This document shows positions 16,310 through 63,922 of a DNA stretch of 64,000 nt, one piece after another. The DNA is taken from assembly GCF_000715505.1 (NCBI RefSeq), contig NZ_JHEH01000019.1, forward strand, positions 1 to 64,000, read 5' to 3'. Positions within the stretch are counted from its first letter, which is position 1, and each line of letters begins with the position of its first letter. The translations under genes were made by a program, and so were the position numbers. This DNA comes from Thioclava dalianensis. Lineage in GTDB: Bacteria > Pseudomonadota > Alphaproteobacteria > Rhodobacterales > Rhodobacteraceae. Under the pieces are notes generated by a model. That model did not search any database. It had not been told where the DNA came from and saw nothing but the letters and a program-made list of their open reading frames with translations.

Positions 16310-17740
16310 TCAGGCCGCCTTATGAAGCTCCGCCTCACGGCAGATGAAGGCGTCGTGAAGGGCCTTGATGACCGGTTTGAGGTCATCGCGCTCAAGCACG
16401 AATTGCACGTCCACATTGCGCGGACCCTGCGTCGCACCAAGGCTTTCGAGCCCCGCATCGGCGATGGCCTGCAGCCCGCGCGTCAGCGTCGACAACCCTT
16501 TGAGATCACGCCCGATCACGGAAGCCATTGCCAGCATCCGCGCCGAGACCTGAGCCGAGGGATACCGTTTGCAGAGGTCTTTCTCAACTTTCTGCAAAAC
16601 CTCGATCGGAGCATCAACATAATGCGTAATCGTGTTGGCATTCGACGCTTTCGAGACGATCCGCACATCGTGATGGGTCAAAACCTCGAGAATCGTGGCG
16701 TCGTAGCCCTTCACACCGACCATGTCCTGTTCGAACACTTCCAGCGCGATGATCTCCAGCCCGGTGACCATCTCGACGGCGGGTTCATCCGCCGGCTTAT
16801 CGTCAATGAGCGTGCCCGGATCGCCGGGATCGAAGGCATTTGTCACCCGCAGCGGGACGTCGGCTTGGCGCAGGGTCTTGGCGGCTTTCGGATGGATCGC
16901 CTCCATGCCCATATTCGACATCTGATCGGCCACGTCGTAATTCGTGTGGCCCAGCTTGCGCACGCGGCCCTCGCCCACCAGCTTGGGATCGGCGGAGGAC
17001 AGGTGGAATTCCTTGTGAATGATCGCCTCGCGCGCGCCGGTCAAAGCCGCCATCCGCGAGAAGGTCACTTCGGAATAGCCGCGGTCGAACTCGCGCATGA
17101 GCCCTTCGGCGCATTGCGCATAGCCCGTGACGATCGGCATCTCGGTCGCCGGATCGACGTCGTTCATCGCGTTCAAGATCCGCGAGTCGAGATCGTGATC
17201 GGTTTCGTCACGCCAGCCCGACAGGTCGACGAGGCGGGCATTTACGCCCTCGCGCTGCAACAGCAGCGTGGTGACATAGGCCGAATGCGCCTCGCCCAGC
17301 CCCGAGAGCAATTCGCGGATTTGCAGCATGTGCTGCGACAGCCGGAAATGCCCGTAAGAGCACAGGCGTTGCAGATCGATCAGGCAATTGCGCGCCCCTT
17401 CGATCCGCTCGCGCACGAACTCGCTGGCCTGCGCGATGTCGCCCGGATGCTTCAGCACCTTTTCATGGGCTTCCACCATGGCGGTGGCCACGCGGCTCAG
17501 TGCCTCGTGCCAGCCATGCTCGCTATCGGCCCGCGCGAATTGCGCATAGACGCCGGACTCGCCGGTCTTTTTATGCTCGAGCAGCAGGTTGGTGATGCCG
17601 CCAAAGGCCGACACCACGAAGACACGTCCGTAAAGATCAGCGCCTTTGCGATCCCCGACGAACAGCGTTTCAAGCAGTTCATCGACGCGGCTCATCGAGG
17701 TGCCGCCGATCTTCTCGACAGTATGCTTTTGCTGGGTCAT
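16310..17740 (-). CDS. ask: Ectoine-cluster aspartate kinase
   Basis: 476 residues. It phosphorylates aspartate at the head of the route to aspartate semialdehyde, the EctB substrate. The N-terminus VEKIGGTSMS and VSAFGGITN follow the Ask_Ect type, which is diverged from housekeeping LysC (KFGGTS) and often less feedback-sensitive. ATP/aspartate segments (GYSEVTFSRMAALTGA) and C-terminal ACT-like repeats are present. It is the last gene of ectABC-ask; the ATG at 17740 lies 8 bases after the ectC stop. A second, canonical lysC lies at 43.8-45.0 kb, so this copy is dedicated to ectoine supply. Confidence 0.93.
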   Translation of the reverse strand: MTQQKHTVEKIGGTSMSRVDELLETLFVGDRKGADLYGRVFVVSAFGGITNLLLEHKKTGESGVYAQFARADSEHGWHEALSRVATAMVEAHEKVLKHPGDIAQASEFVRERIEGARNCLIDLQRLCSYGHFRLSQHMLQIRELLSGLGEAHSAYVTTLLLQREGVNARLVDLSGWRDETDHDLDSRILNAMNDVDPATEMPIVTGYAQCAEGLMREFDRGYSEVTFSRMAALTGAREAIIHKEFHLSSADPKLVGEGRVRKLGHTNYDVADQMSNMGMEAIHPKAAKTLRQADVPLRVTNAFDPGDPGTLIDDKPADEPAVEMVTGLEIIALEVFEQDMVGVKGYDATILEVLTHHDVRIVSKASNANTITHYVDAPIEVLQKVEKDLCKRYPSAQVSARMLAMASVIGRDLKGLSTLTRGLQAIADAGLESLGATQGPRNVDVQFVLERDDLKPVIKALHDAFICREAELHKAA

Positions 17741-17748
17741 ATGGGCCC

Positions 17749-18150
17749 TCACGCTTGCTCCAGATCATCGGCAGGCGCATAGGAACCATCTTCGCGATGG
17801 ACCTCGTTGCCGGTCACGGGCGGGTTGAAACAGCACGCCATGACAAGATCCTCATCGCCCGCAACAAGGCGGTGATGGTCATGCAGGTTGAGCGCATACA
17901 TCACGCCCGGCTTGATCTCATGGCGCGTGCCATTGTCCAGCTCGGTGATGTGACCATTGCCCGAGATGCAATAGACGCTCTCGAAGTGGTGCTTGTAGTG
18001 GAAGGTGTGGTCGGAGCCCGCCTTGAGCGTCGTGATATGGAACGAAAAGCCCATATTGTCGTCGGCCAGCAGCATCCGCACACTGGTCCAATCTGCGTCG
18101 GCCACATCGCGTTCAGTGCCTTTGATTTCGTTGAGGTCGCGAACAATCAT
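17749..18150 (-). CDS. ectC: L-ectoine synthase
   Basis: 133-residue cupin. It closes N-gamma-acetyl-L-2,4-diaminobutyrate into ectoine with loss of water. Cupin motifs TFHYKHHFESVYCISGNG (about residues 49-66) and LNLHDHHRL (about 87-95) carry the iron-ligand residues known for EctC (Glu, Tyr, His). The length is normal (about 130). It lies 56 bases after ectB. Confidence 0.97.
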   Translation of the reverse strand: MIVRDLNEIKGTERDVADADWTSVRMLLADDNMGFSFHITTLKAGSDHTFHYKHHFESVYCISGNGHITELDNGTRHEIKPGVMYALNLHDHHRLVAGDEDLVMACCFNPPVTGNEVHREDGSYAPADDLEQA

Positions 18151-18206: not shown

Positions 18207-19496
18207 TTACGCGGCGGCCACATGCGCTCCGTCTTCGGCCAGCACTTCGGCGGTGGCCTCGTCAAGGATCGTCAGACCCTTGCGGAATGTCTCCATCGGC
18301 GTCGTCAGCGGCGCGAGAACCTTGACCACTTGATCATTGTTCCCCGATGTCTCGATCACGAGGCCTTTCTCAAAGCAGCGACCGCAGATCTTCGAGGCCA
18401 GCTCGCCGGTACCCACATCAACGCCCTGCATCAGGCCACGACCCTTGAGGAACGCGCCGGGCACTTTGTCGGCAACAGCCGCAAGACCTTCGCGCAGCAC
18501 ATCGGCCTTCACGGCCAGCTCGCGCTGGAACACGTCATCCGACCAGAATTTTTCAATCGCTACGGTCGCGGTCACGAAGGCATGGGTGTTGCCACGGAAC
18601 GTACCGTTATGCTCGGCGGGACCGAACACGTCATGCTCGGGGCGCACGAGAACCAGCGCCATCGGCAGACCGAAGCCCGAAATGGACTTGGCTTGCGTGA
18701 TGACATCGGGGGTCACGCCCATCTCTTCGAAGGAGAAGAACGTCCCGGTGCGGCCACAGCCTGCCTGAATGTCGTCAACGATGAAAAGTGCACCGTGCTT
18801 GCGGGCGACTTTCTCGACACCTTGGATGAATTCCGGGCTTGCAGCATTGAGGCCGCCCTCGCCCTGAACCGTCTCAAGCATGATTGCGGCAGGCGCGTCC
18901 ACGCCACCGGACGCATCCGAGAGCATTTGGTCGAGCAGCGCCACCGAATCGACGCCATCGGCATAGTTGTCATAGGGCAGACGTGTCACGCCATGGGTGT
19001 CCATGCCAGCGCCGCCACGGTGATAGCCGTTGCCGGTCGCAGCCAAGGCGCCCATGGTCACGCCATGAAAGCCGTTGGTGAAGGCGATGATATTGGTGCG
19101 CCCGGTCGATTTGCGCGCAATTTTCATTGCCGCCTCAACCGCATTGGCGCCGGTCGGGCCGATGAACATCAGCTTATGATCCATGCCGCGCGGGGCAAGG
19201 ATGTGCTTTTCATAGGCGTTCAGAAACGCCGCCTTGCTGTCGGTATGAAGATCGAGCGCATGGCCCATCTTGTTTTCCAGCAGGTGATTGATCAGCGCCT
19301 CTTTCATGTCCGGGTCATTATGCCCGTAGTTGAGCGACGAGCAGCCGGCGAGAAAGTCGATATAGGTGTGACCGTCAGCATCGGTCAGCTCAGAGCCCTG
19401 AGCGCTGGTGAAAACGGTATCGAAACCGCGGCAATAGGAACGGGCCTCGGATTCGCGTTTTGTAAAGATCGTCTTGTCCACAGTGGTCGTGGTCAT
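18207..19496 (-). CDS. ectB: Diaminobutyrate-2-oxoglutarate transaminase
   Basis: 429-residue class III PLP aminotransferase that makes L-2,4-diaminobutyrate from aspartate semialdehyde using glutamate. The PLP lysine is K270 in TQAKSIS; VDDIQAGCGRTG upstream is the cofactor-binding strand. FIGPTGANAVEAAMKIAR is typical of EctB. ATG 19496 has GGAGA five bases before it, better than the upstream ATG at 19511. It lies 49 bases after ectA. Confidence 0.97.
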   Translation of the reverse strand: MTTTTVDKTIFTKRESEARSYCRGFDTVFTSAQGSELTDADGHTYIDFLAGCSSLNYGHNDPDMKEALINHLLENKMGHALDLHTDSKAAFLNAYEKHILAPRGMDHKLMFIGPTGANAVEAAMKIARKSTGRTNIIAFTNGFHGVTMGALAATGNGYHRGGAGMDTHGVTRLPYDNYADGVDSVALLDQMLSDASGGVDAPAAIMLETVQGEGGLNAASPEFIQGVEKVARKHGALFIVDDIQAGCGRTGTFFSFEEMGVTPDVITQAKSISGFGLPMALVLVRPEHDVFGPAEHNGTFRGNTHAFVTATVAIEKFWSDDVFQRELAVKADVLREGLAAVADKVPGAFLKGRGLMQGVDVGTGELASKICGRCFEKGLVIETSGNNDQVVKVLAPLTTPMETFRKGLTILDEATAEVLAEDGAHVAAA

Positions 19497-19545
19497 GGGA
19501 TTCTCCGTCAAATTTGGGGGAAGGAAGGGCGCGCAAGCCAGCCTG

Positions 19546-20076
19546 TCAGGCGGCGGCGCGGGCCTCTTGCGGGAACGTGATCGTCACCATGTGCTCGGTC
19601 GCGGCATGGCCATCGAAATGGTCGTCTTCATGGAAATGCGCCTCATCGGTCAGCTCACCGCCGATCGAGCGCGCGAAAGAGCGGAACAGGCCCCAGCTGG
19701 CTTCATTGCTGCGGGTGATCGTGGTCTTGAGCTGGGTGCAGGCATCGGCTTCATCACGCTCGATCAGATGGGTGAGCATGCGCTTGCCAAGGCCGAGGCC
19801 GCGCGCATCGGGCGATACCGCGACCTGCCAGACGAAAAAGCTCTCGGGCTCGGAGGGCGCGATATAGCCCGAAATCCAGCCCAACAGCTCGCCGTCACGC
19901 TCGACCATCACGCAGGTGTCGCGAAAATGGTCGCACTGCAACAGGTTGCAATACATCGAGTTCTCATCAAGCGGCTTGCAGCGGCGGATCAGCTTCCAGA
20001 TCTCACTACCATCCTCCGAGTCCGGCTTCCGAAAAACCAGTTCAGACGCTTTTTTGATAGAGCCAAGATGCGACAC
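19546..20076 (-). CDS. ectA: L-2,4-diaminobutyrate gamma-acetyltransferase
   Basis: 176-residue GNAT acetyltransferase that uses acetyl-CoA on the gamma-amino group of diaminobutyrate. The acetyl-CoA loop is DARGLGLGKRML and ectoine-type landmarks are LVFRKPDSEDG and ENSMYCNLLQC. It starts with GTG at 20076, preceded by AAAGGACAGGA; no better ATG is in frame. First gene of ectA-ectB-ectC-ask and divergent from ectR. Confidence 0.96.
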   Translation of the reverse strand: MSHLGSIKKASELVFRKPDSEDGSEIWKLIRRCKPLDENSMYCNLLQCDHFRDTCVMVERDGELLGWISGYIAPSEPESFFVWQVAVSPDARGLGLGKRMLTHLIERDEADACTQLKTTITRSNEASWGLFRSFARSIGGELTDEAHFHEDDHFDGHAATEHMVTITFPQEARAAA

Positions 20077-20212: not shown

Positions 20213-20809
20213 ATGACAAACCATAACCGCTTCACAGACCATAAAACACTTAGCAATACTAAGCGATTGAACGCCCCAGCGCTCTCTGCGATACTGGATC
20301 ATCTGAACGATGATGAGGTCCGCAGCCTGATGGAACGTGTCGATACCAGCTTGATCGCATTGCGCAGGATCTTGCGCGCCACCGAGATGTTCGGACGCGA
20401 CCTGGCGAAATCCGCCGGTCTGACGCCCGTGCAGTTTCGCGTGTTGCAGGTTGTGTCGGAAGACGGATGGTCGACGCCAAAGGCGATCGCGACCCGGATG
20501 AGCGTCAGCCAAGCCACGATGACCGCGCTGCTCGACAAGTTGGAGCGTAAGAATATGGTGACCCGCAAGCGCTCCGAGCGCGACCGGCGTCAGACCGATA
20601 TCGTGATCACCCCGGTGGGCCGCGCGGCAATCGACGATGCGCCCGATGCGCTTCAACAGATCTTCGTTCGCCGCTTCGAGGCGCTTGAGGATTGGGAGCA
20701 GGCGCAGTTGATCGCCTCGCTTGAGCGGGTCGCAGCGATGTTGGACGCCCATGAGATCGACGCCTCGCCGGTGCTTGATTGGGGCGATATCTCCGGCCGT
20801 CCGAGCTAA
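20213..20809 (+). CDS. ectR: MarR-family ectoine operon regulator
   Basis: 198 residues with a winged helix-turn-helix of the MarR family: LTPVQFRVLQVVSEDG, then the recognition helix MSVSQATMTALLDKLER, then the wing RKRSERDRRQTDIVIT. Position and orientation, divergent from ectABC-ask, identify it as EctR, a repressor relieved by salt stress in other bacteria. No ribosome site precedes ATG 20213, and the possible -10 is 9 bases upstream, so a leaderless transcript or a later start remains possible. Confidence 0.88.
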   Translation: MTNHNRFTDHKTLSNTKRLNAPALSAILDHLNDDEVRSLMERVDTSLIALRRILRATEMFGRDLAKSAGLTPVQFRVLQVVSEDGWSTPKAIATRMSVSQATMTALLDKLERKNMVTRKRSERDRRQTDIVITPVGRAAIDDAPDALQQIFVRRFEALEDWEQAQLIASLERVAAMLDAHEIDASPVLDWGDISGRPS

Positions 20810-20920: not shown

Positions 20921-22105
20921 ATGACGATTGCAAATCCCCCATTCAGCCAACCGGAATATCAGCGGCGCATCAAGCTTGTGCGTCAAGCGATGGTCGAACG
21001 CGGGATCGAGGTGCTGTTCGTCACCAACCCCTCCAACCAATTCTGGCTCACAGGCTATGACGGCTGGTCGTTTTACACCCATCAGGGCGTGATCTTACCG
21101 TTGGAGGGCGAGCCCTTCTGGTGGGGGCGCTTCATGGATGCCAATGGTGCCCGCCGCACCGTCTGGATGCCCGAGGACAATATCCTCTATTACAACGATA
21201 TCATGGTGCAGTCGGACGTCTCACATCCGATGGAGGACCTCGCCTCGCGCCTGCGCATCATGGGCTATGGCGCTGCACGGATCGGCGTCGAGAAAGAGAC
21301 CTATTTCTACACCGCGCGCGCCCATGAGGTGCTGGTCGAAGGACTCCCCGAGGCAGAACTTCTTGATGCCAGCGTGCTGGTGAATTGGCAGCGCCTGATC
21401 AAATCGGAAGAAGAGCTGAACTTCATGCGCCGCGCTGCGCGGATCTCCGAGCTGGTGATCGCCCGCGCCATCGACCTCATCGAGCCCGGAATGCGCAAGC
21501 ACGATCTGGTGGGGGAGCTCTATCGGACCGCCGTGCAGGGCGAAGAGGATAGCTGGGGCGATTACCCCGCCATCGTGCCGATGTTGCCCTCGGGGGCCGA
21601 TGCCTCTGCGCCGCATCTGACATGGAACGGCGAGGCGTTCAAATCCGGCGAGGCGACCTTTATCGAGCAATCGGGCTGCTATCGTCGCTACCATTCTCCG
21701 CTGTGCCGCACGGTGTTTCTTGGAAAGCCGCCCCAGCATGTGATCGACGCCTCCGAGGCACTGACCGAAGGGCTCAATGCCGGGATCGAGGTGGCGCGGG
21801 CCGGAAACCGGGCCTGCGACATCGCGCGTGCGCTCAACACCGAATTGCTTAAGGTTGGGATCGAACGGCCCAACCGGGCGGGCTATGCGGTGGGTTGCTC
21901 TTATCCGCCCGATTGGGGGGAGCATACCGTCTCGATCCGCGACACCGACGAGACCGTTCTGGAACCCGGCATGACCTTCCATTTCATGCCCGGCCTGTGG
22001 ATGGACGATTGGGGCATGGAGACGACCGAGACGATCCTGATCCGTGAGGACGGCCCGGCAGAACCGCTCAGCCATATCGAGCGCAAACTGTTCGTGAAAG
22101 CCTGA
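20921..22105 (+). CDS. doeA: Ectoine hydrolase (DoeA/EutD), M24 peptidase family
   Basis: 394 residues. It opens the ectoine ring to N-alpha- (and gamma-) acetyl-L-2,4-diaminobutyrate, the first step of ectoine catabolism. It has the creatinase N-terminal domain (about 15-165; NPSNQFWLTGYDGWSFYT) and a pita-bread C-terminal domain (about 175-390). As in DoeA, several metal ligands of true aminopeptidases are replaced, e.g. FIEQSGCYRRYHSPLCRTV in place of the Asp-rich site. It starts 111 bases after ectR on the same strand and is followed after 4 bases by an M20 deacetylase. Start ATG 20921 fits the family length. Confidence 0.88.
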   Translation: MTIANPPFSQPEYQRRIKLVRQAMVERGIEVLFVTNPSNQFWLTGYDGWSFYTHQGVILPLEGEPFWWGRFMDANGARRTVWMPEDNILYYNDIMVQSDVSHPMEDLASRLRIMGYGAARIGVEKETYFYTARAHEVLVEGLPEAELLDASVLVNWQRLIKSEEELNFMRRAARISELVIARAIDLIEPGMRKHDLVGELYRTAVQGEEDSWGDYPAIVPMLPSGADASAPHLTWNGEAFKSGEATFIEQSGCYRRYHSPLCRTVFLGKPPQHVIDASEALTEGLNAGIEVARAGNRACDIARALNTELLKVGIERPNRAGYAVGCSYPPDWGEHTVSIRDTDETVLEPGMTFHFMPGLWMDDWGMETTETILIREDGPAEPLSHIERKLFVKA

Positions 22106-22109
22106 GCCC

Positions 22110-23261
22110 ATGAAGATGCAGCCGACCCTTTCGATCCTGTCCGACCTTGTCGGCTTTCCGACCGTGTCGGCGCAGACCAACCTGCCGATCATCCACTATA
22201 TCGCCGCGCGGCTTGAGGCCGCCGGTGCCGTGGTCGAGGTGATGACCGATGAGAGCGGCCAAAAGGCCAATCTCTTTGCCACGCTCGGACCTGCGCGCGA
22301 TGGCGGGCTGGTGCTGTCGGGCCATTCCGACGTGGTGCCGGTCACCGATCAGACATGGGCGAGCGATCCGTTTCGGATGACCGAACGCGACGGCAAACTT
22401 TATGGGCGCGGCACCTGTGACATGAAGGGATTTATCGCGGCGTGCTTGGGCTCGCTCGACAGCCTCAAGGCTGCCGCCCAAACGCGCCCGATCCATTTCG
22501 CCTTCACCCATGATGAGGAAGTCGGCTGTCTTGGCGCTCAGTCGCTGGTCCGGCTGCTGGCCGAGCGCCCAATCAAACCCGCGCTCTGCCTGATCGGCGA
22601 GCCAACCTCGATGCAGGTCTATGACGGCAACAAAGGCTGCTGCGAATATACCGTGCGTTTCACCGGCCTGCCCGGCCACAGCTCAGCGCCAGAGCGCGGC
22701 GTGAATGCGGTCGAATATGCCGTGCGCTACATCAACCGCCTGTTCGAGCTGCGCGCCGCCCTGATCGCGCGCTGCCCCAAAGGCTCGCGCTTCGATCCGC
22801 CCCAGACGACACTGAACGTGGGCGCCCTGAGGGGCGGCGTGGCGCATAACGTGATCGCGCCCACCGCCGAGCTGCAATGGGAAATGCGCCCGATCAACGC
22901 CGCTGATATGCATTTCGTGAAGGGCGAGATCGAGGCGTTCGTCACAGACACGCTGCTGCCTGACATGCGCGCCATCGCACCGCAGGCCGAGATTGCGACC
23001 GAGACGGTGGGCGAAGTCGTGGGGCTTGAGCCGATGGATGAGAACGCCGCGCGCGATCTGGTCTTTGCGCTGACGGGGCAAAACCATGCCGGATGCGTCG
23101 CCTTCAACACTGAGGCCGGGCTGTTCCAGTCGATCGGTATGGATGCGGTGATCTGCGGCCCGGGCTCGATCGAGCAGGCCCATAAGGCCGACGAATTCGT
23201 CTCGCTCGATCAGTTGGAGCAATGCCTGAAAATGCTCGAACGGCTGGGCGCGCGGGGCTAG
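22110..23261 (+). CDS. M20 family deacetylase, ArgE-like; candidate N-acetyl-diaminobutyrate deacetylase
   Basis: 383 residues with a complete M20 metal site: GHSDVVPV (first His/Asp), GRGTCDMKG (bridging Asp), HDEEVG (catalytic Glu pair), IGEPT (ligand), and a C-terminal His in IEQAHKADE. The closest named family is acetylornithine deacetylase ArgE. Because it starts 4 bases after doeA, I infer it removes the acetyl group of N-alpha-acetyl-diaminobutyrate, the DoeB step, although the DoeB of Halomonas belongs to the succinylglutamate desuccinylase-like fold. A role in arginine metabolism is the alternative. It overlaps the convergent metallophosphoesterase gene by 4 bases. Confidence 0.8.
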   Translation: MKMQPTLSILSDLVGFPTVSAQTNLPIIHYIAARLEAAGAVVEVMTDESGQKANLFATLGPARDGGLVLSGHSDVVPVTDQTWASDPFRMTERDGKLYGRGTCDMKGFIAACLGSLDSLKAAAQTRPIHFAFTHDEEVGCLGAQSLVRLLAERPIKPALCLIGEPTSMQVYDGNKGCCEYTVRFTGLPGHSSAPERGVNAVEYAVRYINRLFELRAALIARCPKGSRFDPPQTTLNVGALRGGVAHNVIAPTAELQWEMRPINAADMHFVKGEIEAFVTDTLLPDMRAIAPQAEIATETVGEVVGLEPMDENAARDLVFALTGQNHAGCVAFNTEAGLFQSIGMDAVICGPGSIEQAHKADEFVSLDQLEQCLKMLERLGARG

Positions 23262-25260: not shown

Positions 25261-26268
25261 ATGAAGAAATCCACACTAGCCAGTCTGTTTCTGGCCTTGC
25301 CGCTGAGCGTCCTTGCCGCGCCAGCCGCCTTTGCCGCAGATGGCGAATGCGGATCAGTCACCGAAGCTGAGATGAACTGGGCCTCGGCCGGTGTTGCCGC
25401 CTGGGTCGACAAGATCATTCTTGAAAACGGCTATGGCTGCGATGTGACGCTGGTTACCGGCGACACGATGCCCACCTTCACGTCGATGGATGAAAAGGGT
25501 GAACCCGACATTGCGCCCGAGCTTTGGGTCAACGCGGTCAAGCTGTCGCTCGACAAGGCGGTCTCCGAGGGTCGGCTGGTGATTGCGGCCAATATCCTCA
25601 AAGATGGCGGCGTCGAAGGCTGGTGGATCCCGAAATACATCGCCGAGGAACATCCCGACATCAAAACCGTCGAGGACGCGCTCAAGCATCCCGATCTGTT
25701 CCCCGATCCCGAAGATCCGTCGAAAGGTGGCATCTACAACTGCCCGGCGGGCTGGAACTGCCAGATTTCGACCGCCAATCTCTACCGCGCCTATGATGCC
25801 AAGGCGAAAGGCTTCGAGCTGGTCGATACCGGTTCAGCCGCCGGGCTCGACGGCTCGATCGCGAATGCCTATGAGCGCAAGCAGGGCTGGCTGGGCTATT
25901 ACTGGGCACCCACCGCGATTTTGGGCAAATACCCGATGGTCCGCCTCGATGCGGGTCCGAACAACAAGGAAAACTGGGACACCTGCACCTCGCAGCCCGA
26001 TTGCGCCAATCCGGTCCCGAATTCCTACCCGACCTCTGACGTCTATACCGTTGTGACCAAAGCGTTTTCCGAGAAGAACCCGATCGCGATGGGCTATCTC
26101 AAGAAGCGGGAATGGTCCAACGAGATCGTCGGCAAGTTCCTCGCGTGGCAGTCGGACAATCAGGGCACCAACGAAGACACCGCCTATCATTTCCTCGAGA
26201 CGTACCCGGACGTGTGGAAGGCTTGGCTCTCGCCGGAGGTTGCCAAAAAGGTCGAGGACGCGCTCTGA
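25261..26268 (+). CDS. proX: Betaine-type ABC transporter substrate-binding protein
   Basis: 335 residues, periplasmic. A signal peptide covers residues 1-25 or so (MKKS, hydrophobic core LFLALPLSVLAA, cleavage near AFA-AD). The mature part is an OpuAC/ProX fold: MNWASAGVAAWVDKIIL at the start and many Trp/Tyr residues (GWWIPKY, GYYWAPT) that can form the aromatic cage for quaternary ammonium solutes. Cys pairs around CPAGWNC and CTSQPDC may form disulfides. First gene of proX-proW-proV. Given the nearby ectoine hydrolase, ectoine is a possible additional ligand (inference). Confidence 0.92.
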   Translation: MKKSTLASLFLALPLSVLAAPAAFAADGECGSVTEAEMNWASAGVAAWVDKIILENGYGCDVTLVTGDTMPTFTSMDEKGEPDIAPELWVNAVKLSLDKAVSEGRLVIAANILKDGGVEGWWIPKYIAEEHPDIKTVEDALKHPDLFPDPEDPSKGGIYNCPAGWNCQISTANLYRAYDAKAKGFELVDTGSAAGLDGSIANAYERKQGWLGYYWAPTAILGKYPMVRLDAGPNNKENWDTCTSQPDCANPVPNSYPTSDVYTVVTKAFSEKNPIAMGYLKKREWSNEIVGKFLAWQSDNQGTNEDTAYHFLETYPDVWKAWLSPEVAKKVEDAL

Positions 26269-26367
26269 TCGCGCTCTGACCTTTTCTCTTCGCGCGCGCG
26301 GGCCGGACCTGCGCGCGCGTTTCCTATTTCGCGGGCCCGGCCCGCTCTCCACCAAAGGACCTCACCG

Positions 26368-27276
26368 ATGGCATCTTGCTGGGGCTTGCCCGAAATGCTG
26401 TGCGATTTTCCCGCACTTCCGAACAAGGACATGCGACATATGCGCATGTGGATCGACGATGGTTTCCGGGGCATCGTGCGCCATTTCTCCGCGCAGATCG
26501 ACGCCGCGACGCAACCGCTGCAATGGTTTCTCAACACGCTCGAAAACCTGTTCACCAACACGCCGTGGATCGTCATTTTGCTGGCAATTCTCGCGGTGGT
26601 CTGGCTGGGATCGCGCAGCGTCAAAATCGTGATCGGATCGATCATCGGCATGTGCCTGATCGGGGTATTCGGCCTGTGGGAAGACACGATGACCACGCTT
26701 GCGATGGTCACGGTGGCTACGCTCATCGCGATCATCCTCGGTTTGCCCATCGGGATCGTGATGGCTCGCTCGAACCGGATGCAATCGGTGATGACGCCGG
26801 TGCTCGACGTGATGCAGACCATGCCCTCCTTCGTCTATCTGATCCCGGTCGTCGTGATCTTCGGGATCGGCAAGGTCCCGGGCGTGATCGCGGTCGTGAT
26901 CTATGCCGTGCCGCCGATGATCCGCCTGACCAATCTAGGTATCCGGCTGGTCGACAAAGAGGTCATTGAGGCCGCGGATGCCTTTGGGGCCAATCCGCGC
27001 CAGAAGCTCTGGGGCGTGCAACTGCCGCTCTCGCTGCCCACGATCATGGCGGGCGTGAACCAGACGATCATGATGGCGCTGGCGATGGTCGTCGTGGCCT
27101 CGATGGTGGGCGTTGGCGGTCTGGGCAAGAACGTGTTGCAGGCGATCAACAACCAGTTCTTTACCATCGGCTTCCTCAACGGCTTTGCGCTGGTCGCCAT
27201 CGCGATCATCTTCGACCGCACGAGCCAAGCCTTCGGCAAACGTCTTCAGAAACATTCGGAGGTCGGTCATGACTGA
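26368..27276 (+). CDS. proW: Betaine-type ABC transporter permease
   Basis: 302 residues. An N-terminal extension of about 70 residues precedes the first helices (PWIVILLAILAVVWLG), then a standard BPD_transp_1 domain follows (about 110-295), with MQTMPSFVYLIPVVVIFG and the EAA loop EVIEAADAFGANPRQKLWGVQLPL that contacts the ATPase. The N-terminal start is uncertain: ATG 26368, 26431 or 26440 are all in frame. It overlaps proV by 8 bases. Confidence 0.93.
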   Translation: MASCWGLPEMLCDFPALPNKDMRHMRMWIDDGFRGIVRHFSAQIDAATQPLQWFLNTLENLFTNTPWIVILLAILAVVWLGSRSVKIVIGSIIGMCLIGVFGLWEDTMTTLAMVTVATLIAIILGLPIGIVMARSNRMQSVMTPVLDVMQTMPSFVYLIPVVVIFGIGKVPGVIAVVIYAVPPMIRLTNLGIRLVDKEVIEAADAFGANPRQKLWGVQLPLSLPTIMAGVNQTIMMALAMVVVASMVGVGGLGKNVLQAINNQFFTIGFLNGFALVAIAIIFDRTSQAFGKRLQKHSEVGHD

Positions 27277-28351
27277 TAGCACGACCCAAAGCGCCGAGAC
27301 CCGCTCGGGCGTCGAGATCCGCGATCTCTACAAGATTTTCGGGTCCAACCCGAAGCGCTATATTGATGCGGTCAAGAACGGGATGACCAAGACCGAACTG
27401 AACGACAAGCATAACCACGTGCTGGGCCTGCAAAATATCAATCTGGAGCTGCCACCGGGGCAGATCTCGGTGATCATGGGGCTATCTGGCTCGGGCAAGT
27501 CGACTTTGATCCGCCATATCAACGGGTTGATCATGCCGACCGCCGGGCAAATCCTCTATAATGGGCGCGACGTCGTGCAGATGAACGAGCAGGAATTGCG
27601 CGAGTTCAGACGTCACGAAACGGCGATGGTATTTCAGAAGTTTGCGCTCTTGCCGCATCGCACGGTGCTTCAAAATGTCAGCTACGGGCTGGATGTGCAG
27701 GGCATCGCGCGCTCCAAATCTGAACCCATCGCGCGCAAATGGATCGAGCGTGTGGGCTTGGCGGGCTATGAGGACAACTACCCCGCGCAGCTTTCGGGCG
27801 GAATGCAGCAGCGCGTGGGCCTGGCCCGGGCGCTGGCCAATGATGCCGATATCTTGCTGATGGATGAGGCGTTTTCCGCGCTCGATCCGCTGATCCGCAT
27901 GGATATGCAAAAGGTGCTGCTCGATCTGCAATCCGAGTTGAAGAAGACAATCATCTTTATCACGCATGACCTCGACGAGGCGTTGCGGCTTGGCGACAAA
28001 ATCGCGATTCTGCGTGATGGCGCGCTCAGTCAGGTCGGGACGGGCCAACAGATCGTGCTCAACCCGGCCAATGACTACATCGCGGAGTTCGTGCGCGAGG
28101 TGAACCGGGGTCGCGTCATCAAGGCCGAAACGGTGGCGACCCCGCTGCCCGAGGGCGATGCGCCGTTGCCGGAGTTCAAGATCAAGGGCGGCAGCACGCT
28201 TGAAAAAGCCGCGCGCCGCTTGGCCGAGCACGATCAGCGCAAGGCCACGGTTGTCGCGCGCGACGGGCGCCCGATCGGCACGATCGACATGCACACGATG
28301 CTCACCGCGATGGTGACGCCCGCCACGGTCGACGATGAGGATGCGGCCTAA
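27269..28351 (+). CDS. proV: Betaine-type ABC transporter ATP-binding protein
   Basis: 360 residues. Walker A is GLSGSGKST, the signature is LSGGMQQR, Walker B is DILLMDEAFSALDP and the H-loop is ITHDLDEA. KHNHVLGLQNINLELPPGQ before Walker A is typical of ProV/OpuAA. The C-terminal part (about 300-350) holds a single partial CBS-like segment (KATVVARDGRPIGTID) that in relatives senses ionic strength; the second CBS seems missing. ATG 27269 overlaps the end of proW. Confidence 0.95.
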   Translation: MTDSTTQSAETRSGVEIRDLYKIFGSNPKRYIDAVKNGMTKTELNDKHNHVLGLQNINLELPPGQISVIMGLSGSGKSTLIRHINGLIMPTAGQILYNGRDVVQMNEQELREFRRHETAMVFQKFALLPHRTVLQNVSYGLDVQGIARSKSEPIARKWIERVGLAGYEDNYPAQLSGGMQQRVGLARALANDADILLMDEAFSALDPLIRMDMQKVLLDLQSELKKTIIFITHDLDEALRLGDKIAILRDGALSQVGTGQQIVLNPANDYIAEFVREVNRGRVIKAETVATPLPEGDAPLPEFKIKGGSTLEKAARRLAEHDQRKATVVARDGRPIGTIDMHTMLTAMVTPATVDDEDAA

Positions 28352-58729: not shown

Positions 58730-58946
58730 GGCACAGCGCGCCGTTTTGAGCGCCGGATGCGCCTCACGGGGCTGCGCGAGATTTCCAACGCACGCCCGCT
58801 GCGCCGCATACATCCCCGCAAATTCCTTCAAATCTATCAATTATGCCTCCCGAAAGTGATGGCGGTTGAGGCTGGCGCTGCAACGCGGCAATTGACTCCC
58901 CTCCCGGCACTTGCGAAAGTTTCCCGCAAATGATCGGAGGAACTTC

Positions 58947-59648
58947 ATGAACAAGGTTTACGGGTCTGCGAAGGAAGCTCTCGACGGGCTTCTTTTCGAC
59001 GGGATGCTGATCGCGGCAGGCGGGTTTGGCCTCTGCGGGATTCCCGAACTGCTCATCGATGCGCTCGTGGAGGATGGCGTCAAGGACATTACCGTCGCGT
59101 CCAACAATTGCGGCGTAGACGGGTTCGGCCTTGGCAAGCTGCTCGACACCAAGCAAATCAAGAAGATGATGAGCTCATATGTCGGCGAGAATGCCGAGTT
59201 CATGCGGCAATATCTGAGCGGTGAACTGGAGCTGGAATTCAATCCGCAGGGCACGCTGGCGGAGCGGATGCGGGCGGCAGGTCACGGCATCCCGGGCTTT
59301 TACACCAAGACCGGTGTGGGCACCCAGATCGCTGAGGGCAAGGAAGAAAAACAGTTCGGCGGCGAGACCTATATCCTTGAGGAAGGGATCTTTGCCGACC
59401 TCTCGATCGTCAAGGCATGGAAAGCCGATGAAACCGGCAACGCGATCTTCCGCAAGACCGCACGCAACTTCAATCCGCCCGCCGCGATGTGCGGCAAGAC
59501 CTGCGTGATGGAAGTCGAGGAAATCGTGCCGGTGGGCTCGCTTGACCCCGACCAGATCCACCTGCCGGGGATTTACGTGCACCGCCTGATCCAAGGCGAT
59601 CACGAGAAGCGCATCGAGAAAGTCACCACCCGCAAGAAGGAGGGCTGA
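58947..59648 (+). CDS. scoA: Succinyl-CoA:3-ketoacid CoA-transferase subunit A
   Basis: 233 residues. With ScoB it moves CoA from succinyl-CoA to acetoacetate, allowing use of ketone bodies or PHB breakdown products. [19 protein letters not shown] (about 22-40), [12 protein letters not shown] and [10 protein letters not shown] are SCOT alpha signatures. ATG 58947 has GGAGG eight bases upstream. It ends 3 bases before scoB. Confidence 0.95.
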
Positions 59649-59651
59649 CCC

Positions 59652-60281
59652 ATGGCATGGGATAGAGACCAGATGGCCGCCCGCGCGGCGCAAGAGCTGC
59701 AAGACGGCACCTATGTCAATCTCGGCATTGGCATTCCGACGCTCGTTCCGAACCACATCCCCGAAGGTGTGAACGTCACGCTGCAATCGGAAAATGGCAT
59801 GCTCGGGATGGGCCCCTTCCCCTATGAGGGCGAGGAAGATCCCGATCTGATCAATGCGGGCAAGCAGACGATCACCGAACTGCCCAATACCGCCTATTTC
59901 GACAGCTCGATGAGCTTTGGCATGATCCGCGGCGGCAAGATCGCGATGGCGATCCTTGGCGCGATGGAAGTGGCCGAGAATGGCGACCTCGCAAACTGGA
60001 TGATCCCGGGCAAGCTGGTGAAGGGCATGGGCGGCGCGATGGACCTCGTGGCGGGCGTCAAACGCGTCGTCGTCGTGATGGATCACACCAACAAGCATGG
60101 TGAGAGCAAGCTGTTGAAAGCCTGTACCTTGCCGCTGACGGGCACGGGTGTGGTGAACCGGATCATCACGAATCTGGGCGTTTTGGACGTGGTCGAGGGC
60201 GGGCTCAAGATCGTCGAGACCGCCGATGGGGTGAGCGAAGACGAGATTCGCGCAGCCACCGAAGCCACGATCGTGAACTGA
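59652..60281 (+). CDS. scoB: Succinyl-CoA:3-ketoacid CoA-transferase subunit B
   Basis: 209 residues. The catalytic glutamate is E47 in [11 protein letters not shown], which forms the enzyme-CoA thioester. [16 protein letters not shown] is the conserved N-terminal loop. It completes the SCOT pair with scoA. Confidence 0.96.
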
Positions 60282-60454: not shown

Positions 60455-60940
60455 ATGATCAAGCTCGACCGCCGCGATATCGACATCCTGCGCGTCCTCT
60501 CAGCCGAGGGGCGTCTGTCAAAGGCGCAATTGGCCGAGAAGATCAACCTCTCGCCCACGCCCACATGGGAGCGGCTCAAGAAGCTTGAGAAGGCCGGGCT
60601 GATCGAGGGCTATCAGGCGCGGATCAACCTGCGCAAGCTGGGCGCGCATGTCACGGTCTTCGTGGCAGCCGAGCTTGCCGATCACCGGGCCGCGACCTTT
60701 CAGACCTTTGAGCGCTCACTCGACAAGCACCCGGAGGTCGTAGGCTGCTGGGCGCTTGGCGGGGGATTCGATTATCTGATGCAGATCGTGGCGCGCGATA
60801 TCGACGCCTATCAGCGGCTGATCGACTCGATGCTCGATGCGCGGATCGGGATTGCGCGCTATTTTACCTATATCGTCACGAAAGAGGTGAAAGCGCGCGG
60901 CGCCTTCCCCTTTGAGTTGCTCCTAGACCAAACGGACTAG
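60455..60940 (+). CDS. doeX: Lrp/AsnC family regulator, candidate ectoine-catabolism regulator DoeX
   Basis: 161 residues. N-terminal helix-turn-helix (about 1-55; LDRRDIDILRVLSAEGRLSK) with the recognition segment LSPTPTWERLKKLEKAGLI, then the AsnC ligand-binding domain (about 65-150). It is directly upstream of an aldehyde dehydrogenase and a class III aminotransferase, the order known for DoeX-DoeC-DoeD; in Halomonas DoeX responds to intermediates of ectoine breakdown. That this protein controls ectoine genes is inference from neighbours. Confidence 0.75.
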   Translation: MIKLDRRDIDILRVLSAEGRLSKAQLAEKINLSPTPTWERLKKLEKAGLIEGYQARINLRKLGAHVTVFVAAELADHRAATFQTFERSLDKHPEVVGCWALGGGFDYLMQIVARDIDAYQRLIDSMLDARIGIARYFTYIVTKEVKARGAFPFELLLDQTD

Positions 60941-61044: not shown

Positions 61045-62520
61045 ATGCTCGACACCGCGATGTCTGCACGCCCGGATATTTCCGACAAGCGCCTGCTGCG
61101 CAGTTTTTCTTATGTGAATGGCAAATGGGTTGCCGCCGATGAAGGGGCGGTGATCGCCGTGACCAACCCCGCGGATGGGGCGCGGTTGGGCGATATCGCG
61201 GCGCTGAGCGGGGCGCAGTCGCGCGCCGCCGTCGATGCCGCGCAGGCCGCCTATCTCGACTGGTCGATGACCTTGCCGCAGGAGCGCTCAACCCTGCTGC
61301 GCCGCTGGTTCGACCTGATCATCGCCGCCAAGGAAGATCTGGCGCGGATCATGGTGCTTGAGCAGGGCAAGCCGCTGAGCGAGGCGCTGGGGGAGATCGA
61401 TTATGCCGCGAGCTTCATCGAATATTACGCCGAAGAGGCCAAGCGCCCCAATATTGAGGGCGTGACCAGCCATCTGCCGGATGCCGAGGTCGAACTGTGG
61501 CTCGAGCCCGTGGGCGTTGTAGGGCTGGTGACGCCCTGGAATTTCCCCTCCGCGATGCTGACGCGCAAGGCGGCGGCAGCGCTGGCGGCGGGCTGCACCG
61601 TGGTCGCGCATCCCTCTTCGGAGACGCCGTTTTCAGCGCTGGCACTGGCGGAGCTGGCCGAGCGTGCGGGCTTTGGCCCCGGCGTCTTCAACGTGATCAC
61701 CGGCCACGCGCCCGAGATCGTCGAGCCCTGGACCAAGGACGCCCGCGTCCGCACGCTGTCCTTCACCGGCTCCACCGAGATCGGACGTCTGCTCTATCGC
61801 CAATCGGCGGACACCGTGAAGCGGTTGGTACTGGAACTGGGCGGTCATGCCCCGGTCATCGTCTTCAAGGGCGCCGATCTGGATCGGGCGGTGGCCGAGA
61901 CGATCAAGGCGAAATTCGCGACCTCCGGGCAGGATTGTCTGGGCGCCAACCGGATCTATGTCGAGCGGCCCGTTTATGCCGAGTTCTGCCGCCGCTTCAC
62001 CGAGGCCACGCAGGCGCTGAGCGTGGGCATCGGTATGGATGATCCCGATATCGGCCCGCTGATGAACGAGAAAGCGGTGGCCAAGCAGGAAGAACATGTG
62101 GCCGATGCGCTGACCAAGGGCGCGACACTCGCCTGTGGCGGCAAGCGGCTCGATCGCGGCCCGCTGTTCTACGCGCCCACCGTGCTCACCGATGTGACCG
62201 ATGATGCGCTGATCATGCACGAAGAGACCTTCGGGCCGGTCGCGCCGATCTCGGTCTTTGACAGCGAGCAAGAGGTGTTTGATCGCGCCAATGCCACCGA
62301 ATACGGGCTTGTGGCCTATGTCCACTCGCTCAACCCCAAGCGCATCTACCGCGCCACCCGCGCGCTGCAATTTGGCATGGTCGCGGTCAATCGCACCAAG
62401 GTCACGGGCGCGCCGATCCCCTTTGGCGGGGTCAAACAATCGGGGCTGGGCCGTGAAGGGGCCCGGCGCGGAATGGAAGAATTCATGGAAATCAAGTATG
62501 TCTGCCGCGACTGGGCCTGA
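61045..62520 (+). CDS. doeC: NAD(P)-dependent aldehyde dehydrogenase, candidate DoeC
   Basis: 491 residues. The catalytic cysteine is C298 in SGQDCLGANR and the general base E264 in LELGGHAP; VTPWNFPSAM and FTGSTEIGR bind the cofactor. The closest named family is succinate-semialdehyde dehydrogenase GabD. In ectoine catabolism the DoeC member oxidises aspartate semialdehyde to aspartate, and the neighbouring DoeD-like transaminase supports this. A GABA-type role is the alternative. ATG 61045 has AGGAGG upstream. Confidence 0.72.
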   Translation: MLDTAMSARPDISDKRLLRSFSYVNGKWVAADEGAVIAVTNPADGARLGDIAALSGAQSRAAVDAAQAAYLDWSMTLPQERSTLLRRWFDLIIAAKEDLARIMVLEQGKPLSEALGEIDYAASFIEYYAEEAKRPNIEGVTSHLPDAEVELWLEPVGVVGLVTPWNFPSAMLTRKAAAALAAGCTVVAHPSSETPFSALALAELAERAGFGPGVFNVITGHAPEIVEPWTKDARVRTLSFTGSTEIGRLLYRQSADTVKRLVLELGGHAPVIVFKGADLDRAVAETIKAKFATSGQDCLGANRIYVERPVYAEFCRRFTEATQALSVGIGMDDPDIGPLMNEKAVAKQEEHVADALTKGATLACGGKRLDRGPLFYAPTVLTDVTDDALIMHEETFGPVAPISVFDSEQEVFDRANATEYGLVAYVHSLNPKRIYRATRALQFGMVAVNRTKVTGAPIPFGGVKQSGLGREGARRGMEEFMEIKYVCRDWA

Positions 62521-62551: not shown

Positions 62552-63922
62552 ATGCTGACCAACGATCAACTCGACAAATGGGATCGCGAGAATTTCTTCC
62601 ATCCCTCAACCCATCTTGCCCAGCACGCGCGCGGCGAGACGCCCACCCGGATCGTCACCGGCGGCGAGGGCGTCTATATTGAGGATCGCGACGGCAACAA
62701 GCTGCTGGATGCTTTCGCGGGCCTTTATTGCGTGAATGTGGGCTATGGCCGCAGCGAGATCGCCGAGGCGATTGCAGAGCAGGCCAAGGAGCTTGCCTAT
62801 TACCACGCCTATGTCGGGCATGGCACCGAGGCCTCGATCACGCTGGCGCATATGGTGCTGGAGCGGGCGCCCGCCAACATGTCCAAGGTCTATTTCGGGC
62901 TGTCGGGCTCGGATGCGAACGAGACCAACATCAAGCTGATCTGGTATTACAACAATATTCTGGGTCGCCCCGAGAAGAAGAAGATCATCTCGCGCTGGCG
63001 CGGCTATCACGGCTCGGGCGTCATGACCGGCTCGCTGACCGGGCTGGCGGCGTTCCACAACAAATTTGACCTGCCGCGCGCGCCGATCCTGCATACCGAG
63101 GCGCCCTATTACTTCCGCCGCCCCAAGGCCGATATGACCGAGGCGCAGTTCACCGCGCATTGCGCAGCCGAACTGGAGGCGCTGATCGAGCGCGAAGGCG
63201 CTGACACGATCGCGGCCTTCATCGGTGAGCCGGTGCTGGGCACGGGGGGGATCGTGCCGCCGCCCGAGGGCTACTGGGCCGCGATTCAGGCTGTGCTGGA
63301 CAAGCATGACATCTTGCTGGTCGCAGATGAGGTCGTCACCGGCTTCGGGCGTCTGGGCTCGATGTTTGGCTCGGATCACTACGGCATGAAGCCCGATCTG
63401 ATCACCATCGCCAAGGGGCTGACCTCGGCCTATGCGCCGCTTTCGGGCTCGATCGTGGGCGACAAGATGTGGAAAGTGCTTGAACAGGGCACGGATGAGA
63501 ACGGCCCGATTGGCCATGGCTGGACCTATTCGGCGCACCCTATCGGGGCTGCCGCAGGGGTTGCCAACCTCAAACTGATCGATCAGCTCGGTCTGGTGGG
63601 CAATGCCGGAAGCACAGGCAAATATTTCAACGACGCGATGAAAGCGGCCTTGGGCGATCATGTTCATGTCGGCGACGTTCGCGGCGAAGGGCTGATGTGC
63701 GCCGTCGAGTTCGTCAAGGACCGCGAGCAGCGCACCTTCTTCGACGCCTCCGACAAGGTGGGCGCGAAGCTGGCGACCGCTTTGGTCGAGCGTGGTGTGA
63801 TCGCCCGTGCGATGCCGCAAGGTGACATCCTCGGCTTTGCTCCGCCACTTTGCCTGACCCGCGAGGAGGCCGACACCATTATCTCGACGACGGCAGATGC
63901 GGTGAAATCGGTTCTCGGCTAA
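62552..63922 (+). CDS. doeD: Class III PLP aminotransferase, candidate L-2,4-diaminobutyrate transaminase DoeD
   Basis: 456 residues. The PLP lysine is K288 in IAKGLTS; LVADEVVTGFGRLG holds the cofactor Asp and LSGSDANETNIKLIWYYNN the phosphate region. WDRENFFHPSTHLAQHARGE at the start resembles, as I recall, the N-terminus of DoeD. It would remove the gamma-amino group of diaminobutyrate to give aspartate semialdehyde for DoeC. Putrescine or taurine-type transaminases are the main alternatives. It starts 31 bases after doeC with AAGGAGA upstream and ends in a strong terminator. Confidence 0.72.
   Translation: MLTNDQLDKWDRENFFHPSTHLAQHARGETPTRIVTGGEGVYIEDRDGNKLLDAFAGLYCVNVGYGRSEIAEAIAEQAKELAYYHAYVGHGTEASITLAHMVLERAPANMSKVYFGLSGSDANETNIKLIWYYNNILGRPEKKKIISRWRGYHGSGVMTGSLTGLAAFHNKFDLPRAPILHTEAPYYFRRPKADMTEAQFTAHCAAELEALIEREGADTIAAFIGEPVLGTGGIVPPPEGYWAAIQAVLDKHDILLVADEVVTGFGRLGSMFGSDHYGMKPDLITIAKGLTSAYAPLSGSIVGDKMWKVLEQGTDENGPIGHGWTYSAHPIGAAAGVANLKLIDQLGLVGNAGSTGKYFNDAMKAALGDHVHVGDVRGEGLMCAVEFVKDREQRTFFDASDKVGAKLATALVERGVIARAMPQGDILGFAPPLCLTREEADTIISTTADAVKSVLG

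Follow-up and report, generated by a model that had tools for sequence, protein, structure and literature searches.

The gene directly behind doeA in Thioclava dalianensis probably encodes a non-orthologous DoeB, which, judged from its sequence and setting, would be an ArgE-type M20 enzyme that deacetylates N-alpha-acetyl-diaminobutyrate. The first-pass annotation of the window (the whole stretch of 64,000 nucleotides analyzed here) had predicted such a replacement. It is supported by the lack of DoeB at the family model, a recurrent DoeA-M20 pair, clusters with M20 in the DoeB slot, the near exclusion of M20 and DoeB and the presence of ArgJ; the last two are new here, as are how widely the pair occurs, the remaining pathway genes of this genome and a possible extension to SAR11. 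Many alphaproteobacteria have what appears to be the same swap, and some may degrade ectoine without the usual marker gene doeB. If the reading is true, counts of ectoine users among alphaproteobacteria are too low, one enzyme annotated as acetylornithine deacetylase has its place in a different pathway, and the SAR11 gene set could be tested for ectoine use.

The M20 reading frame (P0001) is intact, with an ATG start and 383 amino acids. The stop codon of doeA occupies 22103-22105 and the gap is 22106-22109, confirming that the frame begins four bases behind doeA. The motifs GHSDVVPV, DMKG and HDEEVG, described earlier as a full M20 metal site, were all found. Residues H80, D112, E144, E145, E169 and H355 of Escherichia coli ArgE, which we take to be the metal ligands and the catalytic base (a glutamate), correspond to H72, D104, E136, E137, E164 and H358 of P0001. 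All six are retained, and these positions are at least 95% conserved in a set of 81 M20 sequences. Pfam matches are Peptidase_M20, M20_dimer and, weakly, M28. The protein scores 371 bits with NCBIfam model TIGR01892 (cut-off 297.7) and 459.7 with NF005710 (cut-off 412), and it does not reach the cut-off of the equivalog NF003474 (270 vs 460). Its top PDB sequence match is 7rsf, named acetylornithine deacetylase (4e-52) and presumably the E. coli ArgE. P0001 thus resembles ArgE in its model, its metal site and its best structural match, but its genome context is that of ectoine and not of arginine, ArgJ is encoded in the same genome, and the M20 set differs from E. coli ArgE at many positions that have at least 95% identity in the 81 sequences. 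The nearest relative, at 83% identity among the best 80 loci of a genome-contig scan, is the M20 of Thioclava sediminum.

DoeB, also called EutE, shares with the window M20 the slot directly behind doeA, the proposed reaction and the DoeC, DoeD and DoeX partners. It differs in family. An annotated rhizobial DoeB matches Pfam AstE_AspA_cat, whereas P0001 has no match to AstE_AspA_cat and is an M20 protein with the dimerization domain, so the M20 fold proposed earlier in place of the DoeB-type fold stands. The DoeB model TIGR02994 is not among the 25 NCBIfam models listed, of 50, for P0001.

Table 1. Ectoine-related features of the window (scores in bits)
Feature	Positions	Strand	Evidence
M20 deacetylase, ArgE type (P0001); putative N-alpha-acetyl-L-2,4-diaminobutyrate deacetylase (functional DoeB)	22110..23261	+	ORF; TIGR01892 and NF005710 above cut-off; Pfam M20; metal-site positions; co-occurrence
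DoeA/EutD-like ectoine hydrolase (P0002)	20921..22105	+	TIGR02993 538, cut-off 613 not reached; best PDB matches 6twk, 6twj
MarR-family regulator, between ectA and doeA	20213..20809	+	Pfam MarR; 67% homologue beside ect genes in L095
EctA, diaminobutyrate acetyltransferase	19546..20076	-	TIGR02406 174, cut-off 120.6
EctB, diaminobutyrate transaminase	18207..19511	-	TIGR02407 581, cut-off 552
EctC, ectoine synthase	17749..18150	-	NF009806 189, cut-off 128
Aspartate kinase (ask) of the ect cluster	16310..17752	-	NF006614 678, cut-off 536
DoeX-like AsnC/Lrp regulator	60455..60940	+	54% to regulator of rhizobial ehu-eut-doe cluster
DoeC-like semialdehyde dehydrogenase	61045..62520	+	61% to semialdehyde dehydrogenase of rhizobial ehu-eut-doe cluster
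DoeD-like transaminase	62552..63922	+	NF005684 852, cut-off 687

The ectoine genes of the window are collected in Table 1. The gene preceding M20 had been called an ectoine hydrolase. Its closest solved structures agree with that name, the two ectoine hydrolases matching with E values of ~1e-138 and the next structure with ~1e-17, but its score lies under the curated cut-off of TIGR02993, so the name is itself provisional here. Succinate-semialdehyde dehydrogenase models match the DoeC-like protein, all under their cut-offs. The DoeD-like protein shares its model, above the cut-off, with the transaminase at L089, a canonical enuR-eutABC-doeAB cluster. The DoeX-, DoeC- and DoeD-like genes lie ~37 kb from doeA-M20, right behind a gene pair at 58911-60281 that we presume to be CoA-transferase-like. 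Genes for a choline/glycine-betaine-type ABC transporter are found a few kb behind M20 (25261-28351), and its ATPase is above the TIGR01186 cut-off.

We infer the substrate, products, action in trans and regulation of the M20 enzyme, and propose the following route. DoeA would open the ectoine ring to give N-alpha-acetyl-L-2,4-diaminobutyrate. The ArgE-type M20 enzyme, with its two-metal aminoacylase site, would then take off the acetyl group to yield diaminobutyrate and acetate, and DoeD and DoeC would lead on to aspartate. As N-alpha-acetyl-diaminobutyrate is one methylene shorter than N-alpha-acetylornithine, only the side-chain pocket need change.

Across the whole genome, which is 99.99% complete, there are zero matches to TIGR02994. 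The search for a canonical doeB, suggested as a check in the first-pass annotation, therefore found none at the family model, and a hidden DoeB elsewhere in the genome is ruled out at that level. ArgJ was found with a score of 406 (cut-off 298), so arginine synthesis should need no ArgE. A second DoeA, 80% identical to that of the window, is encoded at G000:C3:139286-140464 and scores 551 with TIGR02993 (cut-off 613). It is divergent from EhuABCD-EutB-EutC homologues (L035, G000:C3:130000-149900), and the same stretch encodes a regulator that looks GntR-type by its sequence. EhuA, EhuB and EhuD are above their NCBIfam cut-offs; EutB is above that of NF005680 but narrowly misses that of TIGR02991 (413.3 vs 413.35), and EutC is above that of NF006141 and under that of TIGR02992. 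None of the reference deacetylases matched in the 20-kb stretch around this second DoeA. With homologues of ectoine import and of EutBC beside it and no deacetylase adjoining, the second DoeA may also be served by the window M20.

We surveyed a family sample of 198 genomes, apparently one per genus, as the genus codes differ wherever they are listed. DoeA homologues, taken at E up to 1e-80, occupy 134 places in 128 genomes. DoeB was counted only above the TIGR02994 cut-off, in 26 genomes (49 at E up to 1e-30); sub-cut-off matches in other genomes, up to 296 of 402.7 bits, were left out of the count and are presumably other AstE/AspA-type proteins. M20 genes were assigned to the clade at 51% identity or more. 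The match list, which reaches down to E ~2e-83, includes all matches above 51%, and the next match, at 45% (G036, L158), lies among EutB, EutC, AsnC and DoeD homologues, so the 51% line is conservative.

M20 is present in 84 of the 128 DoeA-positive genomes and in none of the 70 DoeA-negative genomes. The DoeA-positive genomes divide into 82 with M20 only, 24 with DoeB only, two with both and 20 with neither; M20 is thus found in 82 of the 102 that have DoeA and not DoeB. The corresponding Fisher p-values of 3e-23 (M20 with DoeA) and 6e-12 (M20 against DoeB) treat kin genomes as independent. As the M20/DoeB label needs only two changes among the labelled rows of the DoeA tree, they overstate that independence, and few events effectively underlie them. 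Directly beside DoeA are 64 of the 84 M20 genes and 25 of the 26 DoeB genes. It had been proposed that the DoeA-M20 pair would recur and that M20 would substitute where doeB seems to be missing. The first is borne out by the adjacency, which rules out a chance juxtaposition of M20 and doeA, and the second is supported by the near mutual exclusion.

In a FastTree phylogeny of 172 rows, 156 group together (support 95); these are M20 proteins from Rhodobacterales, Hyphomicrobiales and SAR11, plus a single row from an Actinomycetota MAG. Twelve ArgE-like relatives of 37-45% identity taken from the family sample are placed outside this group, among them the copy amid ectoine genes (L158). Most M20-partnered rows of the DoeA tree cluster together. 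The M20-partnered DoeA of a Mesorhizobium plasmid (L033) lies inside a DoeB-partnered group (support 88-94), which suggests that the swap there was independent. We defined 133 residues as invariant from 16 DoeB-partnered DoeA sequences, leaving out rows of <350 or >460 amino acids. M20-partnered DoeA proteins retain a median of 89.5% of these, and the window DoeA retains 82.7%, the minimum among 85 M20-partnered rows.

Neighborhoods were compared at 82 M20 loci with at least 50% identity by tblastn, comprising the window, two plasmid loci and 79 family stretches; L097 (49.7%) was left out, and part of the 134 DoeA places were taken as long stretches. Within 9 kb of M20 there are homologues of DoeA at 61 loci, DoeD at 26, EutB at 11, EutC at 10, AsnC at nine, EhuA at four, DoeC at four and ect genes at two. 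Thirty-one of the 82 have one or more ectoine genes other than DoeA. A Pot-type ABC transporter is encoded at 32, eight of which also have an ectoine gene, DoeD each time; 24 loci have the transporter and no other ectoine gene, and 27 have neither. Twenty M20 copies are not beside DoeA. Seven of these have an ectoine gene nearby (L141, L143, L146, L147, L148, L150 and L151), three have the transporter only and ten have neither.

In Pelagibacterium lentulum (L196) the order is eutA-eutB-eutC-doeA-M20, all in one direction, i.e. the eutABCDE order with M20 at the place of eutE. Clusters of EutB, EutC, AsnC and DoeC homologues beside DoeA-M20 occur in P. lacus (L213), Nitratireductor luteus (L191), a Mesorhizobium MAG (L192), Aquibium sp. 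(L226), a Roseibium MAG (L199), Falsiruegeria mediterranea (L172) and Pseudooceanicola atlanticus (L177). The placing of an M20 enzyme in the DoeB position thus holds in the ectoine clusters of L196, L213, L226, L191, L192 and L199. At L053 M20-DoeA is divergent from EhuBCDA-EutB-EutC-AsnC-DoeC-DoeD. DoeB above the cut-off was found in none of 12 genomes behind M20 loci (L196, L213, L226, L191, L192, L199, L172, L177, L170, L190 and two of SAR11); in four of these the DoeB model gives weaker matches, under its cut-off. Two M20-paired DoeA proteins exceed the TIGR02993 cut-off of 613, those of L226 (632) and L033 (684.7). L196 (605.7) and L213 (603.1) fall just short, and L053 scores 566.5.

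A recurrent block near DoeA or M20 combines Pot-type ABC transporter genes with a EutA-like protein, and in most cases it also encodes another M24 protein and an enzyme resembling diaminopropionate ammonia-lyase. It was seen at L056, L108, L111, L118, L121, L138 and L197, and in SAR11 at L202 and L225. On a Mesorhizobium amorphae plasmid (L034, 8022-9097) the annotation splits the homologous M20 gene into two adjacent pieces, and the preceding M24 gene is short. The Rhodobacterales plasmid loci L031 and L032 have a close DoeA homologue, with neither a deacetylase nor other ectoine genes nearby.

Several of these results count against a non-orthologous DoeB: the window DoeA is under its cut-off and has the lowest retention of invariants, 27 of the 82 loci have neither ectoine gene nor transporter and 24 have the transporter alone, ten of the 20 copies away from DoeA likewise have neither, 20 of the 128 genomes have neither deacetylase, the label changes only twice on the DoeA tree, and four of the 12 genomes checked give weak DoeB matches. 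DoeA and M20 might act on a relative of ectoine instead, be it 5-hydroxyectoine or something taken up through the Pot-type transporter. The low score of the window DoeA would fit this, as would the transporter near 32 of the 82 loci, 24 of them without another ectoine gene, and the recurrent EutA-like block with its additional enzymes. Yet DoeD is also present in eight of those 32 loci, and elsewhere the pair is found beside ect genes or within EutBC-DoeX-DoeC clusters, several of which also hold Ehu or DoeD homologues, and we consider action on such a relative unlikely.

The enzyme might alternatively deacetylate N-gamma-acetyl-diaminobutyrate, the product of EctA, returning a biosynthetic intermediate to diaminobutyrate. 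This is highly improbable, given that ect genes are found at only two of the 82 loci, whereas 64 of the 84 copies adjoin DoeA, and that ArgE-type enzymes act on alpha-N-acetyl groups. What speaks for it is that M20 adjoins ectABC in the window, is near ect genes in L095 and in L172 has homologues of ectC and ask less than 9 kb away, and that both acetyl isomers are reported from the DoeA of Halomonas elongata in the accessible text of PMC5924519. We reject as extremely improbable that M20 serves arginine synthesis as an ordinary acetylornithine deacetylase and merely happens to adjoin doeA. TIGR01892 and NF005710 do carry that name, but ArgJ is above its cut-off in the genome and M20 tracks DoeA, the clade being missing from 114 of the 198 family genomes including all 70 without DoeA; nor is the equivalog cut-off reached.

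A non-orthologous DoeB of ArgE type is not a wholly new idea, as it is preceded by M20 proteins of doeBDAC-type clusters and by abgB clusters of Bacillota. Loci matching DoeA_2 (NF038259) have the order M20-transaminase-DoeA_2-dehydrogenase, which matches doeBDAC as found in methylotrophs. In L253 and L255, the two read of the three such loci found, a Pfam M20 protein occupies the slot of doeB. They share with the window an M20 superfamily protein at the doeB slot, but it is of another subfamily and is paired with a different DoeA family. P0001 gave no tblastn match in L253 or L255 at E 1e-8 and 40% coverage, with Pfam M20 common to both proteins. According to the accessible part of Reshetnikov 2020 (PMC7192451), the DoeB of Methylotuvimicrobium alcaliphilum has 22% identity to that of H. 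elongata and is backed by in vivo evidence, with N-alpha-acetyl-diaminobutyrate in the doeB mutant after down-shock. By analogy of gene order, this DoeB would be an M20 protein. Boas Lichty 2026 (PMC13188858, in excerpt) describes eutD clusters of Bacillota with an amidohydrolase gene, abgB, and no eutE. These too combine a DoeA homologue with an amidohydrolase gene, but they are Gram-positive, have another gene order, and their function is left open by the authors in that excerpt. We found no publication on an ArgE-type DoeB in the open-licence literature, including a search for 'ectoine hydrolase' with 'acetylornithine deacetylase'; where argE stands alongside ectoine catabolism there, in the passages concerned, it belongs to GABA regulons. 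Surveys of ectoine consumers have required eutD next to eutE (the Mais 2020 dataset, as described in the relevant part of PMC8739950) or focused on genomes with EutD, EutE and EutB (in the excerpt of PMC13188858). Both criteria pass over DoeA-M20 genomes.

The genome-contig scan for M20 gives the best 80 loci and is no measure of frequency; 39 of these are titled SAR11, their M20 copies being 45-49% identical to the query. In 30 SAR11 genomes chosen from the 39 loci, all bearing the M20 relative, a DoeA-like protein was found in 27 and DoeB in none. M20 and the DoeA-like gene are ~5 to 25 kb apart in 19 of the genomes, assuming that contig numbers correspond. The two SAR11 DoeA proteins compared retain 66-70% of the canonical invariants, so that their substrate is less sure. 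Two papers on SAR11 treat, in the text available, ectoine transport and hydroxyectoine synthesis and not breakdown (PMC10030771, PMC6018831). It is conceivable, although doubtful, that marine alphaproteobacteria, SAR11 among them, rely mostly on the ArgE-type M20 to deacetylate acetyl-diaminobutyrate, that SAR11 can degrade ectoine via the DoeA-like protein and M20, and that the nearby PotABCD, currently read as a polyamine importer, imports ectoine or a close relative. At SAR11 locus L225 the order is M20, one gene that is presumably cyclophilin-like, PotCBDA-like, DoeA-like and EutA-like, where the DoeA-like protein scores 472 bits with TIGR02993 and the EutA-like protein 215 of 318.
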